From: Planctomycetia bacterium
GTDB lineage: Bacteria > Planctomycetota > UBA1135 > UBA2386
Assembly (NCBI GenBank): GCA_005776365.1
Contig: SXPK01000016.1
Location: forward strand, 1-32,308
DNA length: 32,308 bases
Direction: 5' to 3'
The position numbers were made by a program, and so were the translations under genes. The notes below the pieces were generated by a model. The model was not told where the DNA came from, did not search any database, and worked only from the letters and a program-made list of their open reading frames with translations. This document shows positions 19,075 to 31,367 of the stretch, piece after piece. Within the stretch, counting starts at the first letter, position 1. Every line of letters begins with the position of its first letter.

Positions 19075-21899
19075 AACGCGTCCTCGCGTACTTGCTCCTG
19101 ATCGCCGGTGGATTCGTCGTGCTGATGTTCGCGCTTGGCGAGGAACAGGAACAACAACCGTCCTCGCAGCGGCAAGCTCCGCGGCAAGAACCTGCTCGCG
19201 TGGACAGCGCACCGTCCCAGATCCCGATCGAGCAAGGCGGCACACAGGTCGGCCTCAGCGGCGGCTTCACGATCAGCCGTCACCGCGACGTTCCGCGAGC
19301 AGGTGGCGGCGTGCTGCGGCAGAAGGTCTACGAGCTCACTTGCAAGGACAGCGCACCCTTCGCGGACGGCCGCCACCGACTGCAGGATCTTCGCGTGCAT
19401 CTGTTCGATGAAGGCAAGCACGCGGCGGATCTCACCGCATCGCGAGCGCTGGTCGAGCTGACGTCAAACGCTCAGAAGCAGCGCGAGCTGCGCGAGAATC
19501 GCGAACTCGAACTCGAGAACGCCGTGCTCGTGAGCCTGCCGGACGGTGGACTGCCGCCGCTACGCATGGAACTGGGTCTCGTGCGCGCCCTCGTCGGCGA
19601 AACGGCCATCACGCTCAACACGGCCGAAGGCAACCAGCCGGTTTCGGTGCTCATCGACGGCGATCGCGGCGGCGAACTACGCGGCAAGGGTCTGCGAGCG
19701 AGCCTTCCCCGTGAGCGGGATGCCGTTGCCAGCACGCTGCAACTGACGATCCTGAGCGAGCCATCGGTACGCATGCAGGGCATCACGTTGCGCGGCACAG
19801 GCGAGCTGCGCTACGAAGAGTCACTGCACAATGGCGCGGCGACCCTCGCTCTCGCCAACGACGTAGCCGCCGAGGTGCAATCGAAGGAAGCAAGCTCCGA
19901 CCTGGACCGGGGGCAACTTGTAGTAACCGGCAATCGAATGTTCGGCTGGTTGCAGCGAACGTCGGGCAGTGGCGGCGTCCGCGGATCGTCGCTTGCGTGG
20001 ACTGCGCTGCGACTCCACGGCGCGCCAGCGCGGGTAACCACCGACACGGTCGATCTACAGAGCTCGCGCATCACGGTGGAACCCGGCGCGTCCGGCCAGA
20101 TCGCGTCCATCACCGCTGACGGCGGCGAGTCTTCGCTCGTGCAACGCGGTGAGAACGGCGCGACGTTTCGCTCCGCGCACCCGATCCGACTGCATCGCAC
20201 GGCATCGGGTCTTGCGATGACGCATCGCGCATTTGGATTCCCGTCGCACGCGCTCGGCGCGATCGCGCAACTCGAAGTGGTCGTGTTCGACGGCCCATGT
20301 GAAGTCGACGCACGAGACGGTGTCGCGCTTGCGGCGGATCGCGGCATGCATGTCTTCCGGCCACAAGTCGGCGCCGGCGTGGCCGCGATCGTCGCGCGAG
20401 CTTTCGGGCGCGTCCGTGTCGCGTCAGGAACTGCAACGGACCGGATCGAGGCAACCGGCGATTCCGGCTTCCACCTCGTGCGCGCAGCTACCGGCGATCG
20501 GCTCCGACTCGGCTCGGCGGATGGCGCAGCGCAGCAGACCTTCGACGTTCGCCGCGACAACGTCCACCTATGGGGAACGGGCGCAACAAGTGTCACGCGC
20601 GCCTCGGATGGCGCGGTCACCGTTGCCTTGCGCAGCACGCCCGGCGCCCTGCAGGCCGAGAATGGCAACCGCGGCGACTCAGACTACGGCGCAATGCACA
20701 ATGCCGAGTCGATTGACGTCACGATCGCAGATGGCACGGTGCAATCGTTCGTCGCAAAGGGGCCAGCAACTGAGCTCGAGACCGAGCATGACAAGAAGCC
20801 GATGTTCGCCACGGCCTCACGCATCGAGCAGGTCAACCAGGCACAGTGGCGCCTCACCGGCACTCGCGGCTCGCCAGCAAGGCTGCGCTATCGTGGCGGG
20901 GACAACGAGATCTCGGGTAATCTGTCGGCGCCCAGAATCGACGTGCACCGCGTGACCGGCCGCGCCGTCGTGGTCGAGGCCGTCGAGCAAGACGAGGAAC
21001 GCGCGCGCATCGACGCCGTCCTGCCGATGCGATCTTTGGCCGCAAACCGTCGCGTGCGGGCCGCAGCCTCGCGCATTCGTGCGATGCCGTTCGCCGCCGG
21101 CACCGAGTTTGATCTTCGGCGGTTGTTTCCACTGCCACCCGGCGCATTCGAAGCCGCCGTTGCGCCGATGCGCGACCCGTGGCTCTGGGCCGAAAGTTCC
21201 GTCACCGCGGAACTCGACGACGAGAAAGGATCCATGAAGCTCGATGCTGCGTCGCTGCTGGCGCGCCCATCGACTCGATCCCTGATGATCCAGGGTGACG
21301 CCGCGCAATCGTCGCTCGCTCGACTCATGCGCTACGAGAATGGCAGCCCGGTGCTGTCCGCGCAGGGAGCGCGCGTGCGTTTCGCCGACGAAGACGGTGA
21401 GCGCGTGTCGTTGCTGACTTCTTATTCAAACGACAGCCGACTCATTCCGCCGCGAGTCTCGTTTCGTAGCGACGGCGCGCTCGGCTGGCTCTCCGGCGAG
21501 TGCAAGGGCGAGATCGAAGTCGCGCGCGAGGCGGTGCGCTTCCACGGCCCCGTGCATGCGCAGAGCCTCCTTGACGACATGACTCCTGACCCGCTCGGCA
21601 TGAACGTCGATGCGGCGCAACTGACAATGCGTCGACATCCGACCACCGGCGAGTTGCTCACGATCGACGCCGGAGGCGGAGTGACCATGCGTTGGCGAGA
21701 CCTCTTCGCCAAGAGCCAAGACATCGAACTCGACCTTCGCTGGAAGCGGTGCATCGCCGAGGATCCCAACGGCGCGCAGGTGCAGTTCGGAAACGGCCAG
21801 AGCTACGTGGCGCAACGCATCGAAGCGAACTACGAGACCTACACTGTGCGCAGCTACTTCGGACGACTCCAGCAGGACCCTAGGACCGCCGCGAAGTGA
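19071..21899 (+). CDS. Giant LptC/LptA-like LPS export bridge protein
   Basis: A 942-residue protein in the operon position of lptC-lptA. A GTG start overlaps the kdsC stop. One N-terminal membrane anchor (4-22) is followed by a polar periplasmic region. Residues about 60-190 follow the LptC pattern: LQDLRVHLFDEGKHAADLTASRA, then LENAVLVSLPDGG. The last 96 residues (847-942) follow the LptA/OstA pattern: LLTIDAGGGVTMRW, KSQDIELDL and AQVQFGNGQ then QRIEANYETYTV. The long middle has repeated beta-strand segments with the same look (ADGGESSLV, HNAESIDVTIADGTVQSF, DNEISGNLSAPRIDVH). LptC in E. coli has 191 residues and LptA 185. I infer a continuous beta-jellyroll bridge from the inner membrane Lpt ATPase to LptD, in one chain. 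Periplasmic location is expected from the anchor. Confidence 0.78.
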   Translation: MKRVLAYLLLIAGGFVVLMFALGEEQEQQPSSQRQAPRQEPARVDSAPSQIPIEQGGTQVGLSGGFTISRHRDVPRAGGGVLRQKVYELTCKDSAPFADGRHRLQDLRVHLFDEGKHAADLTASRALVELTSNAQKQRELRENRELELENAVLVSLPDGGLPPLRMELGLVRALVGETAITLNTAEGNQPVSVLIDGDRGGELRGKGLRASLPRERDAVASTLQLTILSEPSVRMQGITLRGTGELRYEESLHNGAATLALANDVAAEVQSKEASSDLDRGQLVVTGNRMFGWLQRTSGSGGVRGSSLAWTALRLHGAPARVTTDTVDLQSSRITVEPGASGQIASITADGGESSLVQRGENGATFRSAHPIRLHRTASGLAMTHRAFGFPSHALGAIAQLEVVVFDGPCEVDARDGVALAADRGMHVFRPQVGAGVAAIVARAFGRVRVASGTATDRIEATGDSGFHLVRAATGDRLRLGSADGAAQQTFDVRRDNVHLWGTGATSVTRASDGAVTVALRSTPGALQAENGNRGDSDYGAMHNAESIDVTIADGTVQSFVAKGPATELETEHDKKPMFATASRIEQVNQAQWRLTGTRGSPARLRYRGGDNEISGNLSAPRIDVHRVTGRAVVVEAVEQDEERARIDAVLPMRSLAANRRVRAAASRIRAMPFAAGTEFDLRRLFPLPPGAFEAAVAPMRDPWLWAESSVTAELDDEKGSMKLDAASLLARPSTRSLMIQGDAAQSSLARLMRYENGSPVLSAQGARVRFADEDGERVSLLTSYSNDSRLIPPRVSFRSDGALGWLSGECKGEIEVAREAVRFHGPVHAQSLLDDMTPDPLGMNVDAAQLTMRRHPTTGELLTIDAGGGVTMRWRDLFAKSQDIELDLRWKRCIAEDPNGAQVQFGNGQSYVAQRIEANYETYTVRSYFGRLQQDPRTAAK

Positions 21900-24454
21900 T
21901 GGCTCCGACCCGCACGATCCTCCCCATGGTCGCGGCGATCGTCGCCTTGGCCTCGCTTCGCGCCCAGGATGCGACCTTGCCGGCGCCCGCAGTTCCATCG
22001 GTAGGGCCGCAGCCGCTGTTCGCCTTCGACTTCGCCTTCGGCAGCAGTGGACCGCAGGACGATTTCTGGGAGACCTGCGGTTACGGCGGCTTCCGGTTTC
22101 GCTGGCCCGGCCTCGACATGGAGATCCGCGGGCGCAACGGACTGCTGTTGTCGGACCGCGCCGCGATCCTGCGGCTCACGCAGCGCAACGACGGAGCGGG
22201 TGACCTGCCGACACGGGATGCCGCGGACCCGCAACCGCGTCGTGCGATGTCGAGCGAGTTGCTGCAACAACGCGCAGAACGGTTGATGCAAGCCATCGGC
22301 GGCGGCGACAAGCCGAAGCTGCCGCCTGGCCAGCTCGCCTACGAGGTTCCGCGCTTCCTCTACTTCGAAGGCGGCGTGCAGATCATCCGCCAAGGCGTGC
22401 TGGTCGCGAACTGCGAGCGCATGTGGATCTCGCCGCTCGACGACCGCATCGTCGTCGAGGAAGCAGAACTGCGTTGGCGCCAGGACGATGGCAAGGGCGG
22501 CCCACCCATCACGCTGGTCGTGCGCGGCAAGAAACTCGAGAAGCAAGGGCCGCGATGGACGGGTCGCAATCTCACCATCACGAGCTGCTCGGCTGGCGAG
22601 CCGCACGCGGCGCTGGCAAGCGGCGAACTGGAACTGCTCGAGCGCGGCGACCAATTCGAGGTCTACTCGCGCGGCAACTCGCTGCTCGTCGGCGGCACGA
22701 AGATCCTGCCGCTGCCCGACGCCCACTTCTTCAGCGCCGAGCAGAGCGCGCTGCCGATCAAGGGCGTGCGATTCGGCTTCTCCGGCGCTGACGGCATGCG
22801 CACCGAAGTCGAACTCGGCATGCCTTACCAAAGCGCGGGCGGCGCCGTTCACGAGTGGCTGACCGGACGGCCTGCGCACGAGTTCCGCGGTGAGTGGAAC
22901 CTTGGCGTCGGCTGGATCGAGAGTCGCGGCTTCCCGCTGCGCGGCGACGTCGACTATGGCGCCGCGGGTCTCTACCAGGGCCGAACCGAAGGCTTCTGGA
23001 TGGAGGACAACGGCCCCAACCGCCGCGAGATCACGGCAAACCTCGACGGCACCACCATCGACGACTATGCGCGATCGTTGGTGCGCACCGAGAACCGGGT
23101 CTTCCTCGGGGAACGCACCAATGTCGACGTCCAAGCGTTCACCGCCGGCGACGCAGCTGTCTACAGCGAGTACTTCCGAGCCGACTATCGCGGCCGCGAA
23201 CTGCCGGAGAGCAGCCTCTACTTCCATCACGCGTGGGACAACGTGCTCGTCACGACCACCGCGCGATTCACGGCCGACGACTTCTCGTATCGTGACAATC
23301 GTTCGCTCGCGAACTCGTTCACGGAGGAGATGCCGGTAGCGACCCTGCAGTGGCTGTCGCAACCAATCGCTGAGACGCCCTGGGAGACGCCGATCGTGCT
23401 CGATGTCGAGACCGAGATTGGCGAGAGGCGGCTCTCGGTCAACGCCGGTTCACCCACGCCTGCGAGCGAGGATCGCAAGACCCGCGCCGATCAGATTGTC
23501 GAGTTGTCGGCCCCGTTCCTCATTGGGCCCGTAACGCTGCGTCCCTTCGTGCAGGGGCGGCTCACCCACTACGACGAAGACGCACTTGGCGAGTCCGCCA
23601 ACCGTTGGGCGACGACGTATGGGCTGCGTGCCGGTTCGCGCTTCTCCCGCACGTGGGACTGGATCGACGATCACGGCCGCGAACAGTCGATGCGCCACGT
23701 CGTTTCGCCAATCGTCTCGGTCCTCGATCGACCGCAGGTGACCGGCAATCCGGCGCAGTTCCGTCAGTTCGACCCTGCTGTCACCCAGCGTCGTGACCCA
23801 ACGGACGAGTTCACCGAACAGAGCCTCGTTCGCTTCGAGTTGCGCAACCTGCTGCAACGCACGCGTGCGGATGAGAAGCTCGAACCAAAGACCGAGGACG
23901 TGGTGTTCCTCGATCTTGCGCAGGACTTCTGGCCCGACCCATCGCGCACCGATGGCACCGATGCGGATGGCGACGGCCTAGGCTTGTTCTACTACGACTT
24001 CCTCGTGCGGCCTGAGCCATCGTGGTGGCCGTCGAACGACCTTGCACTCGGGCTCTACGGCGACCAGGACTGGAAAACTGGTCTGCGCACGCTCGATGCC
24101 GAGTTGATGATCGGCAGCATCGGTGGGCTGGATTGGACCCTCGATTACCGAACCGACAGCGTGGTCAGTGGCGCCGCCGGTTTCGGCGTGCGCGCCGAGT
24201 TGCTCGGGCGCTGGGATGTGCAAGGCAACGTCATGTACGACCTCGAGCGCGATGACATCCTGACGTACTACGCGGGTATGCGCCGCGACGATCACGACTG
24301 GTCGCTGCTCGTCGGACTCAGCTACGACCCATTCATGGACGCGGTGACGTTCCGCATCGACATGGAACCGAAGTTGTTCGGACTCGGACGGCAGCGGAAC
24401 TCCGGTTGGTTCGGTCCAGTCACCGACAGCCGGATGTATCCGACCGATTGGTGA
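21899..24454 (+). CDS. lptD: LPS-assembly outer membrane protein LptD
   Basis: An 851-residue outer membrane LPS translocon. The ATG at 21899 overlaps the previous stop by one base (TGATG); a GTG three bases earlier is also possible. It has a signal peptide (1-22). The N-terminal jellyroll domain covers about 60-265 (FLYFEGGVQIIRQGVLVANCERM), and NSLLVGGTKILPLPDAHF (260-277) matches the conserved entry into the barrel. The large barrel follows, with RHVVSPIVSVL and RQFDPAV, the family RHxxxP region, then RNLLQR and VFLDLAQDFWPD. Three cysteines (60, 172, 230) lie in the N-terminal domain. The pair of adjacent barrel cysteines of E. coli is not seen. lptE, lptB and lptFG are not in the window. 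Confidence 0.84.
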   Translation: MAPTRTILPMVAAIVALASLRAQDATLPAPAVPSVGPQPLFAFDFAFGSSGPQDDFWETCGYGGFRFRWPGLDMEIRGRNGLLLSDRAAILRLTQRNDGAGDLPTRDAADPQPRRAMSSELLQQRAERLMQAIGGGDKPKLPPGQLAYEVPRFLYFEGGVQIIRQGVLVANCERMWISPLDDRIVVEEAELRWRQDDGKGGPPITLVVRGKKLEKQGPRWTGRNLTITSCSAGEPHAALASGELELLERGDQFEVYSRGNSLLVGGTKILPLPDAHFFSAEQSALPIKGVRFGFSGADGMRTEVELGMPYQSAGGAVHEWLTGRPAHEFRGEWNLGVGWIESRGFPLRGDVDYGAAGLYQGRTEGFWMEDNGPNRREITANLDGTTIDDYARSLVRTENRVFLGERTNVDVQAFTAGDAAVYSEYFRADYRGRELPESSLYFHHAWDNVLVTTTARFTADDFSYRDNRSLANSFTEEMPVATLQWLSQPIAETPWETPIVLDVETEIGERRLSVNAGSPTPASEDRKTRADQIVELSAPFLIGPVTLRPFVQGRLTHYDEDALGESANRWATTYGLRAGSRFSRTWDWIDDHGREQSMRHVVSPIVSVLDRPQVTGNPAQFRQFDPAVTQRRDPTDEFTEQSLVRFELRNLLQRTRADEKLEPKTEDVVFLDLAQDFWPDPSRTDGTDADGDGLGLFYYDFLVRPEPSWWPSNDLALGLYGDQDWKTGLRTLDAELMIGSIGGLDWTLDYRTDSVVSGAAGFGVRAELLGRWDVQGNVMYDLERDDILTYYAGMRRDDHDWSLLVGLSYDPFMDAVTFRIDMEPKLFGLGRQRNSGWFGPVTDSRMYPTDW

Positions 24455-24515: not shown

Positions 24516-25526
24516 TCAGAAGCTCCAGCCGACCGTCAACAGCACGCGGTGGTCACTGCGTTCGCGCGTCGGCGCTGGCGTGTTGTCGTAGTCCCAGATC
24601 CACGCGATCGAACCGATCATGCTGTCGGTCAGATTGGTGCGCAGCTCGGTCGTCGCTTGGAAGTAGACGTCTTCGCTGTTCTCCGTGCTCGGAAACGCTT
24701 CGACGCCGTGGATCAACTTCGTGCGTTCGTTGAACGTGTGCCGGAGCTTGTAGGCAATGCGCGCGGCGAGGTAGTCATTGCTCGGCGCGCCGGAGCGGAA
24801 GTTCTCGGTCAGGTAGGAGAGACCGGCTTCGGCAGTCAGCTTGGTTTCTGCGCCATCGAGCAGCTGGAAGCCGTAGCCAAGACCGGCAGTCCAGCGCAGG
24901 TCGAGGTCAGCCATCGTGTCACCCAACACTCGCGTCGTCGCAAGCGCATAGGTCGTCTCGGTGACGAAGCGGTCGTACTTGAGGCCACCGCCAGTGCGGC
25001 GTTGCGTCAGGTTCCACTGCTCCGTTGCCTGGTCCTGGTCCTGCGCATAGTCCCACTGCGCGTCCGCCGCGAGGCGGTCTCCGGTTCGGCGCAGCTCTGC
25101 ATCGAAGGCTCCGCTCGCGCTGCGACGTTCGGTGTTGCCGCTGATCAGACCAGCGCCGAGCTTGAGCGCGCCGGTCCAATCCGCCTCTTTCCGCTCCGGT
25201 GGGTTGATCGCCGCGAGATTGGCGACCAGTTCGGAGCCAGCGTCGTGAAAGCGCATCGTGCCGCTGTCGATGCCGGCGATGCGACGGCGAATGAGATCGC
25301 CGGTGGACGTCTTCAGTTGCACTTGTTCGGCGGTCTGCAGATCCCGCACCTCAGCCATCGGGACCACGACGTCGCCGAGCGCCGCTGAGTTCAACGTCAG
25401 CTTCCCGTCGGTCATCGTCCTGACTTGGCCGGTCAGCACATCGCCATTGTTGAGTGTGACCTTGTCCTGCGCGATTGCTGCAGCGGACAGGAGTGCAGGG
25501 AAAAGGAGACCAAAGAGGCTGCGCAT
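24516..25526 (-). CDS. DUF481 (YdiY-like) outer membrane protein
   Basis: A 336-residue exported protein. The start ATG at 25526 gives the signal peptide MRSLFGLLFPALLSAAAIAQ; the frame runs further up through the ettA end but without a signal. Residues 20-80 (DKVTLNNGDVLTGQVRTMTDGKLTLN, VVVPMAEV) resemble a small Sm-like beta domain that often precedes DUF481. From about 112 (WTGALKLGAGLISGNTERRS) to the end (SDHRVLLTVGWSF, with the final aromatic of a barrel) is the DUF481 beta-barrel, like YdiY/salt-stress-induced proteins. The role is unknown. It follows ettA by 20 bases, so they may share a transcript, and converges on lptD with 61 bases between them. Confidence 0.88.
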   Translation of the reverse strand: MRSLFGLLFPALLSAAAIAQDKVTLNNGDVLTGQVRTMTDGKLTLNSAALGDVVVPMAEVRDLQTAEQVQLKTSTGDLIRRRIAGIDSGTMRFHDAGSELVANLAAINPPERKEADWTGALKLGAGLISGNTERRSASGAFDAELRRTGDRLAADAQWDYAQDQDQATEQWNLTQRRTGGGLKYDRFVTETTYALATTRVLGDTMADLDLRWTAGLGYGFQLLDGAETKLTAEAGLSYLTENFRSGAPSNDYLAARIAYKLRHTFNERTKLIHGVEAFPSTENSEDVYFQATTELRTNLTDSMIGSIAWIWDYDNTPAPTRERSDHRVLLTVGWSF

Positions 25527-25546
25527 GGTTTCGGTGCGTCGCGGGA

Positions 25547-27713: not shown

Positions 27714-28379
27714 TCAGCGCTTGTTAGGAGGCGTCGACTTCTTCTGGCCAATGCCGCCAAGCGTGTCTTGGATCGCAGCATCGCCCGCATCGAAGATGCT
27801 CATCCAGTCGCCACCCTTCTCCTTGGTGTTGGCACGCTTGGTCGCAGCCTGCTCGCGACGCTTCTGCTCCTGATCGAACCACGTTTTGTAGCTCGAGAAC
27901 AGCGATGCGAGCACCTTCTTGTTCTCCGAGATCAGGCCAACATACGGAAACAGCTCGCACTTCAGCTCGCGCTGCAACTTGTTGATCTGCTCGTAGGTGG
28001 TCAGGATCGGCATCGCGATGCAGACCACGTCGTCGAATACGTCCAGCGGCACGATCATGTTCTCGAACAGGACCTTCTCTGGAATGCGTTTCTTGGCTTC
28101 CTCGCTGATCGCGTAGCTGCTCGCCATCATGAATGGCAGATGGAAGTTTTCCGCGACCACCTTCGCGAGATCCCACTCGGTGATGTGGCCGCCAGAAACC
28201 AAAGTCTGGACGAAAGCGTCACCATGCTTGTCCTGGGCGTAGAGCGCTTCGGTGATCACCTCGGAGGCAATGGACTGCTTCTGCGAGAGGACCTCTGCGA
28301 GGCGAACACAGGTGAGCTTTTCGAGACCCTTCACGCGGTGTGCATCGACCAGAAGAAGCCGTGGCCTTGAGGCGGCCAT
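27714..28379 (-). CDS. Free-standing MshEN (GspE N-terminal-like) protein
   Basis: A 221-residue soluble protein. Residues about 24-150 follow the MshEN/T2SSE N-terminal pattern: VRLAEVLSQKQSIASEVITEALYAQDKHGDAFVQTLVSGGHITEWDLAKVVAE, then LPFMMASSYAISEEAKKRIPEKV and PLDVFDDVVCIAMPIL. In type II secretion and pilus ATPases this domain sits before the ATPase part and can bind c-di-GMP. No ATPase part follows; residues 155-221 are charged and end GQKKSTPPNKR. The c-di-GMP-binding residues cannot be judged by eye. It is 12 bases downstream of the MlaF-MlaE fusion and is probably co-transcribed, which could link lipid transport to a nucleotide signal (inference). Confidence 0.78.
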   Translation of the reverse strand: MAASRPRLLLVDAHRVKGLEKLTCVRLAEVLSQKQSIASEVITEALYAQDKHGDAFVQTLVSGGHITEWDLAKVVAENFHLPFMMASSYAISEEAKKRIPEKVLFENMIVPLDVFDDVVCIAMPILTTYEQINKLQRELKCELFPYVGLISENKKVLASLFSSYKTWFDQEQKRREQAATKRANTKEKGGDWMSIFDAGDAAIQDTLGGIGQKKSTPPNKR

Positions 28380-28391
28380 TGCATCGGCGTT

Positions 28392-29891
28392 TCAGACATA
28401 GACGCAGAGGGTCACGGTCGCATGCACGATCAGCGCGATGCCCATGGCATGGACGATCGCTCGGTTGACCGCCTCGCCCACGTCGGCCCCGGACCGCTTG
28501 GGGCCGGATCCGAGGTGGTAGCACACGAGCGCCACCAGGTAGCCGGACAACGCGGCCTTGCCCAAGGCGGCCTTCAGGTCGAGCGGGTCAACGTCTCGAA
28601 ACCAAGTCTGCACGAACCCGAGTGTCGAAGTCCCCGACACCGCCTGCGCTGCAATCAGGCCAGCTAACGACGCGAAGACCGCACCAACGAAGGTCGCGAC
28701 AGGGAGTCCGAGGACCATGCCCCAAACCAGCGGCGTCAGCAGATAGTCCGCGGGGTCAATGCCCATCATGCGCAAGGCCATCACCTGATGATTGCGCGTC
28801 ATCGTCCCGAGCCGCGCCGTGGCGCCGGCAGCGATTCTGGCGACGAAGAAGAACGCGCAGAGCAATGGCACGAGCACCGAGACGAGGACCTTTCCCGTCC
28901 CTTGCAGGATCTCCGCTTCGAAACCGCCATCGACCGGATTGTTGCGCAACGCAAAGAACGTGGCGATGCCGCCGATCGCCGCGCTCGCACCCGCAACGAA
29001 AGGCAGTGGAGACAGCGAGCACTCGACTACAGATCGCAGCGTTGACCGCATCTCGAACGGCGGCAGGCGCAGAACCGAGACGGCGAACGTATGAGCAAGG
29101 CCACCGACCGCGAGCGTCGCGTGACGCATCGCATGGACGAGGTTGTTCTCTGATTCTCGATCCGGTAGTGGACCGACGACAACGGGATCGGTGGCGGCAT
29201 CGCCCGCTGTGCGCATCGAGAGCGTGCGCGTCGAGCGATCCAACTCGAGGATCCCGTCGTGCAATCCATCGAAGGCCGCGAGGTCATGTGTGACCACGAT
29301 GGTCGTGCGTCCGGGCGAAGAATCGTGCGCAAGACGGAGCAGCGCAGCGATCTGAGCAGCGGATTGGGAATCGAGGCCTGCTGTCGGCTCGTCGCAGAAC
29401 AACGCTTCGGGTTCGGCCGCCAGCGCGCGCGCTACAGCGAGACGCTTTCTCATCCCACCAGACATGGATGCCACTCGATCCGGAAGTGGATCGAGACCAA
29501 CTTGCGCGAGCAACGCCGGCGCAAGTCGCTTCGACCGTCCGGCAGCACGCAATGCGAGTTCCACGTTTTGGCGCGGAGTGAGTTCGTCGAGGAGACCCTC
29601 CTCTTGCAAGATCGCAGCCATTCGCTTGCGCAGCGCGCGTGAGGGACCGCTCACGACCGACTCGCCCAGGCAATCAAACCCACCCTTGGTCCGAGGCAAT
29701 GGCTCGCGTGGGTCGAACAGTCCAACGCACAACCGCACGAGGCTCGACTTGCCGCCACCGCTCTTGCCGACCAACAGGTAGAAGCCGCCAATAGGCACGT
29801 CAATCGTCGCTCCCGACAGCAACAGTTCTTCGCCGTCGCCGCGTCGGTGCGCGAGCGAGAAGTCCCGCAGCGACCAGAAGGACGCGACCAT
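28392..29891 (-). CDS. MlaF-MlaE fusion: lipid-transport ABC ATPase and permease
   Basis: A 499-residue single chain combining two normally separate parts of the Mla/Pqi-type lipid transport system. Residues 1-225 are the ATPase: Walker A GKSGGGKSS (42-50), Q-loop region LQEEGLLDELT, signature MSGGMRKR (143-150), Walker B ALFCDEPTAGLD (163-174) and His202. Residues about 255-499 are the MlaE permease: FFVARIAAGATARLGTMTRNHQVMALRMMGIDPADYLLTPLVW follows the family pattern ELGTMxxxxQxxALxxMGxxPxxYLxxP, and the last part includes SGADVGEAVNRAIV. About six membrane spans are expected. It starts directly after the MCE gene stop (no gap). The half-transporter would dimerise to give two ATPase and two permease units. 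Confidence 0.88.
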   Translation of the reverse strand: MVASFWSLRDFSLAHRRGDGEELLLSGATIDVPIGGFYLLVGKSGGGKSSLVRLCVGLFDPREPLPRTKGGFDCLGESVVSGPSRALRKRMAAILQEEGLLDELTPRQNVELALRAAGRSKRLAPALLAQVGLDPLPDRVASMSGGMRKRLAVARALAAEPEALFCDEPTAGLDSQSAAQIAALLRLAHDSSPGRTTIVVTHDLAAFDGLHDGILELDRSTRTLSMRTAGDAATDPVVVGPLPDRESENNLVHAMRHATLAVGGLAHTFAVSVLRLPPFEMRSTLRSVVECSLSPLPFVAGASAAIGGIATFFALRNNPVDGGFEAEILQGTGKVLVSVLVPLLCAFFFVARIAAGATARLGTMTRNHQVMALRMMGIDPADYLLTPLVWGMVLGLPVATFVGAVFASLAGLIAAQAVSGTSTLGFVQTWFRDVDPLDLKAALGKAALSGYLVALVCYHLGSGPKRSGADVGEAVNRAIVHAMGIALIVHATVTLCVYV

Positions 29892-31367
29892 CTACTTGCG
29901 CGGCCTCAAGTCAGCCGGCGCCACACCGAGCCCGACAAGCCTTGCAAGGCTGTTCTTGCGTGGGGCGGTTTGACCCAGCAGGCCGCTCACCTTGGCTGCT
30001 TCGATCAGAATGCCACCGCGATGCTGATCAAGGACTGCGGCGAGGTCCGCGAGATCCGTGACCACAGCACGCGCTCCATCAGGACGGAGCGCGCGCAGTT
30101 CGCTCGGCGCAACGACGTCCACTTCGAATGCGAGCAAGTCTGCTGGCGTCCCGCGGAGGTCTGGCGGCGCTTCGTCGAGAACGAGAGCCGCGAGATCCAA
30201 ATCATTGGGTGCAGTCCACACCCGATGGCCGCGCAGCGCTGGCCCACCGGGGATCGATACGGTGATCTGTTCGCGATCGATGTCGACATCGCCCCATGTC
30301 TCGCTGGCCGTGTAGGCGCCATCGACGACGCTGCGCGCCGTCATGACCACCGCGCGACCACTCGCATCCAACCACAGCACGCCGGTGCCTTCGCCCCGGA
30401 TGCGGTCGTCTGCCGAGAAGGTGTCGCGGTCCACCGCGTCATAGACGATGCGGACGAGCACGATTGGATCGCCGGTATCTGCGACGCGCGAAGCTTGCTT
30501 GGCGATCGCTTCTGGCGGCACTTCGCCGACTGCGAGGTCCGGTCGTTCGGCTGCCGCGCCGGCGCGATGGCCGTCGACCACGGGCGAGCCCTTTCCTGGC
30601 TCGGTCGCATAGGCGACGAACGGCGAGACGATCGCTGAAAAGTCCGCGATGGCAAATCCAGACAGCAGCGCACCGCTCAGGTGCGGGCGCGCGACCCAGA
30701 AGACGCTGTGATCGGTCACCGTGTGGCGATGGCGATTGTCGACCCGCAGCGCGACTTCGACGCATCGGCCATCGGCCGCAAGCCTCACGCTCCGTACGTC
30801 CCCGGTTTGCGTGCCGCGGAACACGATCGGTGAACCTTCGCGCAAGCCGTGGTTCTCCGGCACCAGCAAGGTCATCAACAGGTCGCCGTGACCAATCGGG
30901 GCGAGCGTGTCAGGTTCGACGATCGCAGGCGGCCGCTCGTCGCCGGCCAACGTGGCGCCTGCCAACAGACGCGAGCCGCGTTCTTTCGGGGTCAAGAATG
31001 CGACGTAGGCATCGCGCACCAAGGTGTCGAGACCCGACGCGCCCGACGCCAGCCCGGAGAAGCGCGGCGCAACGATCCAGAATGCGGCGTTGATGCACGC
31101 TTGCTCTTCCCCCGCGGCATCGAGCATCAGATCGACCACCGCCTTGCTGCCGTCCTCCGCAACCTGCACCGCGCGCACTTGACCTACCCGCACGCCGCGG
31201 TAGCGCACGTCAGCTCCAGTCCGCAACCCACGCGCGTCACGGAACTCGACGCGGATCGGCATTCCGCTTCCGCCTTGCGCCGAAGTCAGCGCCTTCCACA
31301 AGACGAGCGCGCCGACGATTGCCAGCGCCAGCGCGACAACCCCCAACAAGTAGCGGGATCGGTGCAT
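29892..31367 (-). CDS. Two-MCE-domain lipid-transport protein with trypsin-like pseudoprotease C-terminus
   Basis: A 491-residue periplasmic protein with one membrane anchor (6-24). I start it at ATG 31367; a GTG 15 codons upstream gives a charged start and is less likely. MCE 1 (about 36-126, VEFRDARGLRTGADVRYRGVRVGQV, FWIVAPRFS) and MCE 2 (about 162-255, LVPENHGLREGSPIVFRGTQTGDV, FWVARPHLSG) match PqiB-like MCE proteins, which form lipid-carrying tunnels between the membranes. Residues 325-465 resemble a trypsin/HtrA-like fold: GEGTGVLWLDASG, VVMTARSVVDGA, ITVSIPGG, NDLDLAALVLD, HRGGILIEAAKVSGLLG. The His position is Arg/Ser and the Ser of the GNSGGPL site is replaced, so it should be inactive. 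It leads the operon with the MlaF-MlaE fusion. Confidence 0.84.
   Translation of the reverse strand: MHRSRYLLGVVALALAIVGALVLWKALTSAQGGSGMPIRVEFRDARGLRTGADVRYRGVRVGQVRAVQVAEDGSKAVVDLMLDAAGEEQACINAAFWIVAPRFSGLASGASGLDTLVRDAYVAFLTPKERGSRLLAGATLAGDERPPAIVEPDTLAPIGHGDLLMTLLVPENHGLREGSPIVFRGTQTGDVRSVRLAADGRCVEVALRVDNRHRHTVTDHSVFWVARPHLSGALLSGFAIADFSAIVSPFVAYATEPGKGSPVVDGHRAGAAAERPDLAVGEVPPEAIAKQASRVADTGDPIVLVRIVYDAVDRDTFSADDRIRGEGTGVLWLDASGRAVVMTARSVVDGAYTASETWGDVDIDREQITVSIPGGPALRGHRVWTAPNDLDLAALVLDEAPPDLRGTPADLLAFEVDVVAPSELRALRPDGARAVVTDLADLAAVLDQHRGGILIEAAKVSGLLGQTAPRKNSLARLVGLGVAPADLRPRK

Follow-up and report, generated by a model that had tools for sequence, protein, structure and literature searches.

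The window, by which we mean the whole stretch of DNA analyzed here (32,308 nucleotides of a contig from an uncultured planctomycete), carries a 491-aa open reading frame on the minus strand at 29892..31367, with its ATG at 31367 and its stop codon at 29892-29894. From the frame and its homologues we annotate it as an MCE protein with a C-terminal pseudo-HtrA domain, and the features tested place it in the MCE family. Residues 2-31 (31275..31364) form an N-terminal transmembrane helix, which is hydrophobic in sequence and is modeled as a helix by AlphaFold2 with pLDDT of about 80-96. The two MCE domains that a preliminary description of this DNA had placed ahead of the tail correspond to two stretches of PF02470 (E=3.5e-22, 78.9 bits against a Pfam cut-off of 25.1). 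MCE domain 1 spans about residues 36-143 (30939..31262) and matches LetB, PqiB and MlaD in fold; MCE domain 2 spans about residues 162-272 (30552..30884) and rests on the second PF02470 stretch, the AlphaFold2 model and its fold match. A flexible linker at residues 276-300 (30468..30542) follows, with low model confidence (pLDDT below 50 at residues 281-284 and 286-294) and poor conservation (mean pairwise identity 26%). The full-length AlphaFold2 model has a pTM of 0.46 and low inter-domain confidence; in a fold search it matches LetB, PqiB and MlaD plus HtrA, and this two-MCE protein has neither the long C-terminal helix nor the needle of other MCE proteins.

The tail itself is a domain of approximately 190 residues, about 301-491. 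Its first beta-barrel (residues 301-405, 30153..30467) has six high-confidence strands, aligns with HtrA in hhalign and is constrained like the MCE domains. The second barrel (residues 406-491, 29895..30152) is reduced to five short strands and ends in a P-x3-R-P motif. The domain had been placed at residues 325-465, and these do map exactly to 29973-30395 on the minus strand, but the domain proved to be larger on both sides. Every HtrA-like motif that had been picked out by eye is present, namely G325EGTGVLWLDASG, V340VMTARSVVD, ITVSIPGG, D391LAALVLD and H449RGG.

The ATG of the next gene follows directly after the MCE stop codon. This gene (28392..29891, minus strand) encodes a 499-aa fusion of an ABC ATPase (PF00005) to an MlaE-type permease (PF02405), and the fusion is kept in several planctomycete families. 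The fused permease is a divergent paralogue whose PF02405 scores, where listed, are about 105-117 bits; other MlaE copies of the same genomes mostly score 210-257 bits, and many of them lie in short stand-alone frames. Searches for MlaC among 61 relatives and for MlaA among 41 found neither in any of them, while the E. coli and Caulobacter controls were positive.

Further genes surround the pair. A gyrB gene (DNA_gyraseB_C) lies upstream of the MCE gene. Directly downstream of the transporter pair there is a small MshEN-like gene (27714-28379, minus strand; 22.9 bits, just under the Pfam cut-off), which occupies the same place in family f1. An 852-aa protein with no Pfam match is encoded at 21896-24454 (plus strand) and lies near the MCE cluster in several relatives; by eye it has the look of an LptD-type outer-membrane barrel. 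A DUF481 protein (24516-25529, minus strand; E=1.4e-38) is found near the cluster in many relatives.

Taken alone, the window tail gave a single Pfam match, to Trypsin_2, and this was below threshold (E=0.007, 17.5 versus 27.6 bits). A phmmer search of the single sequence against the PDB returned no relevant match, and the HtrA matches in a first PDB profile search were only marginal. Because the tail alone fell short of the Trypsin_2 threshold, homologues were gathered, and it was these homologues, the fold and a set of bridge sequences that decided the identity of the tail, single-sequence searches being weak. An alignment of 39 homologous tails served for both AlphaFold2 and hhalign. The AlphaFold2 model of the tail has a pLDDT of 94.9 and a pTM of 0.91, and the best 50 PDB matches found with Foldseek are HtrA, DegS, DegP, DegQ or plant Deg proteases in 50 cases out of 50, with E of about 1e-5 to 1.6e-4 and TM-scores to the query of 0.42-0.58, which is moderate. 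With hhalign the 39 tails matched HtrAs of the same lineage at P=8.6e-8, and the addition of distant members and a wider HtrA set gave P=4.3e-11, against 0.27 for a control with the first MCE domain (MCE1). The homology seen by hhalign covers the first barrel of the tail, and it places the by-eye motif match beyond chance.

Two sequences bridge the remaining distance. L157, a full-length homologue in a different family of planctomycetes, with two PF02470 stretches of its own, scores 35.6 bits against Trypsin_2, above the cut-off, and the match spans positions 1-143 of the 144 in the profile, thus both barrels. The tail family profile also reaches L161, a protease with an intact triad (TNRHV and GNSGG motifs; Trypsin_2 84.8 bits), at E=1e-9. 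Among the loci fetched, those matching the tail profile at E below 1e-18 also carry MCE, and the weaker matches, which are proteases, do not. The Pfam search of the MCE protein found no PDZ domain, and the trypsin-like domain is the end of the protein. Fold search and profile comparison with trypsin families have therefore borne out the central proposal of the preliminary description, and we consider it almost certain that this MCE protein ends in a catalytically dead domain of the trypsin/HtrA fold. An outer-membrane barrel was also considered for the tail and rejected, since the 50 best matches in the fold search are to soluble HtrA domains. The G000 genome, about 65% complete, has 14 Trypsin_2 matches and so contains many HtrA-type proteases in addition to the dead one.

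Residues at the former active site were counted in 43 tail family members aligned to an active-type protease relative. At the catalytic His position, residue 346, there is Ser in 39 members, Thr in 2, Arg in 2 and His in none. The site had been read as Arg/Ser; the loss of the His stands, with the refinement that Ser346 is its equivalent and Arg345 the residue before it (30330..30335, TARS versus TNRH). R345 is present in 41 of 43, and the residue preceding the His in the TNRHV of the active-type relative is likewise Arg. The catalytic Asp is kept, as had been noted, in a DLAxL motif: it corresponds to Asp391 (30195..30197), which is Asp in 42 of the 43. The nucleophile and oxyanion site GNSGG has given way to HRGG in the window protein (H449, 30012..30023, again in agreement with the by-eye reading) and usually to xRGG or xLGA elsewhere, and no Ser is conserved at this site across the 43 members. 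Also conserved are D349 and E366 (each 43/43) and, at the C-terminal end, P484, R488 and P489. Equivalents of R345, D349, W384 and D391 occur in the active-type relative, and these conserved residues may therefore be structural. Since both His and Ser were tested and are absent, the tail does not qualify as an HtrA protease by membership. As judged from sequence, it is an inherited pseudoprotease, predicted not to cut, and the loss of His and Ser is probably ancestral to the sampled tail family. Decay of a single gene was considered and rejected, because the loss of His is family-wide (43/43) and because of the constraint data given below.

A search for the same fusion in other planctomycete MCE genes had been proposed, and it was found throughout. 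There are 33 homologues in the same family, 43-73% identical and most of them aligned over the full length; the tail also occurs in several genomes of two other families, and a search of the phylum found distant members outside the class. In all, the MCE-pseudo-HtrA fusion is present in six or more planctomycete families, the tail is always joined to MCE, and the homologous contigs of named source are nearly all Planctomycetota MAGs. Where the contig extends far enough, the MCE and ATPase-MlaE genes lie side by side at nearly all homologous loci, and they do so at the distant L157-L159 as well. At one locus, L160 (669-3626, plus strand), a single MCE domain precedes the pseudo-HtrA tail, and the ATPase-MlaE gene was not found beside it within the 5.2-kb contig.

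A neighboring family, f8, has MCE proteins (L121-L150, n=30) with another conserved C-terminal domain of about 210 residues, marked by the motif WHGA-x-V-x-x-R-x-DG-x-LVGLLL. Direct comparison of these 30 sequences with HtrA gave no HtrA match, and comparisons of the f8 tail with the pseudo-HtrA tail were mixed (P=1.4e-4 in one, 0.047 in another). At L042, a gene with the f8-type tail adjoins what by eye is a pqiA-like gene.

The two barrels of the tail are under different constraint. Mean pairwise identity is 51% in the first barrel, 54-56% in the MCE domains and 29% in the second barrel. In close pairs the dN/dS of barrel 1, mostly 0.1-0.4, is near that of the MCE domains, and barrel 2 is clearly relaxed; some pairs have an almost saturated dS, which makes these values indicative only. 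The dN of the second barrel is about 2-4 times faster than that of the rest. Barrel 2 is shortened and is shorter still in family f6. In HtrA proteases it is the second barrel that bears the nucleophile and the specificity (S1) pocket. Because the first barrel and the His-Asp half-site are kept while the second barrel is eroded, docking or assembly through barrel 1 is the best reading of the tail: we infer, at roughly even confidence, that it sits where a short MCE tunnel opens into the periplasm and serves there, without catalysis, in docking or assembly. The preliminary description had suggested recognition of peptides or of outer-membrane partners. Docking of a partner is plausible, whereas recognition of peptides in an S1 pocket is less likely, given that the pocket belongs to the shortened, fast-evolving barrel.

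Other functions of the tail can be weighed against the same data. It might mainly stabilize the MCE assembly, the first barrels forming trimers or a collar that caps a two-ring hexamer with no outside partner. HtrA proteases trimerize via the protease domain, and conservation of the first barrel with relaxation of the cleft-forming second barrel fits this picture, but the poorly conserved, low-confidence linker suits a rigid collar poorly, and we hold this explanation to be appreciably less probable than docking. Unlikely, in our judgment, is a chaperone-like role in which the tail binds C-terminal peptides or unfolded proteins of the outer membrane and links lipid transport to envelope stress: DegS and DegP are among the fold matches and part of the old active site is still conserved, yet the half with the S1 pocket and oxyanion site has eroded and become shorter, and the protein lacks a PDZ domain.

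The retained half of the active site could instead be a ligand site, for example with Arg345 and Ser346 contacting a phospholipid head group, that gates the entry or exit of lipid. Retention without catalysis of R345 (41/43), S346 (39/43), D349 and E366 (both 43/43) and D391 (42/43) would agree with such a site; however, equivalents of R345, D349, W384 and D391 are already present in the active-type relative and may be structural, and we give this reading a lower probability still. That the tail is a functionless leftover of a fusion accident is very improbable. The short, relaxed second barrel is what such a leftover would show, but for barrel 1 the idea is contradicted by the constraint data (dN/dS mostly 0.1-0.4), and the tail, with residues that do not vary, has been maintained across six or more planctomycete families.

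On the docking reading, the MCE protein provides the substrate channel of a divergent ABC-type lipid transporter, and the neighboring ATPase-MlaE fusion is its partner. The LetB, PqiB and MlaD families form stacked hexameric rings that carry lipids. Since the MCE part resembles them, stacked hexameric rings would be expected here too, through which lipids would move to the ABC permease or away from it; by analogy, the two MCE domains would stack as two such rings on the inner membrane. Each subunit would then hold an HtrA-derived domain on a flexible linker at the tunnel's periplasmic opening. The tail would work through its first barrel and the old His-Asp half-site (R345, S346, D349, D391), binding a putative periplasmic or outer-membrane partner or the neighboring tails, and lipids would cross from the short tunnel to the outer membrane, or back, with no need of MlaC or MlaA. 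More tentatively, and with considerable doubt, we suggest that a protease scaffold with half an active site was recruited as a gating or docking site in a short two-ring MCE system that passes lipids to the outer membrane, or takes them from it, without MlaC or MlaA; such coupling is, as far as we have found, undescribed for MCE systems.

Planctomycete envelopes are poorly understood, and a conserved pseudoprotease tail offers a concrete, deletable element for testing how lipids are handed over from MCE tunnels to the outer membrane in bacteria without MlaA and MlaC. The tail apparently descends from HtrA, has lost its cutting residues and is reused as a non-catalytic part of a transporter; taken from the sequences, it would be a clear case of the HtrA fold re-employed without catalysis in a transport machine.

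Four architectures are reported to make up more than 97% of the 17,282 MCE proteins in one survey, whose main text makes no mention of proteases (PMC5561183). A literature search of partial coverage found no description of an MCE protein with a trypsin or pseudoprotease domain, or of PF02470 with PF13365, in keeping with the preliminary description, which knew of none. With the HtrA/Deg proteases (DegP, DegS, DegQ, HtrA1; PF13365) the tail shares the overall fold, the order of the motifs and the Asp; homology is clear for the first barrel, and L157 is above the Pfam cut-off over both. It differs from them in having no catalytic His or Ser (43 members), no GNSGG and no PDZ domain, in its short second barrel and in its fusion to MCE.

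For the MCE part, the best structural matches are PqiB and LetB/YebT of Proteobacteria, which likewise have an N-terminal transmembrane helix and several MCE domains per chain; the window protein, in contrast, has only two, without a needle or long tunnel, and adjoins an ABC ATPase-MlaE gene. MlaD of the MlaFEDB system is likewise an MCE subunit that has an MlaF-like ATPase and an MlaE-like permease as gene neighbors. Unlike MlaD, the window protein has two MCE domains and a pseudo-HtrA tail, its ATPase and permease are fused, and its relatives gave no MlaC (61) or MlaA (41). Long forms of MlaD with a C-terminal outer-membrane barrel tend to be found in the absence of MlaA and MlaC, and such barrels are reported to be absent from the PVC group (PMC10665443). 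The long MlaD of Veillonella parvula resembles the window protein in that an MCE protein is extended by a C-terminal beta-domain, but there a long helix leads into a membrane barrel of ten strands (PMC10665443), whereas here a short linker leads into a soluble domain with a trypsin-like fold.
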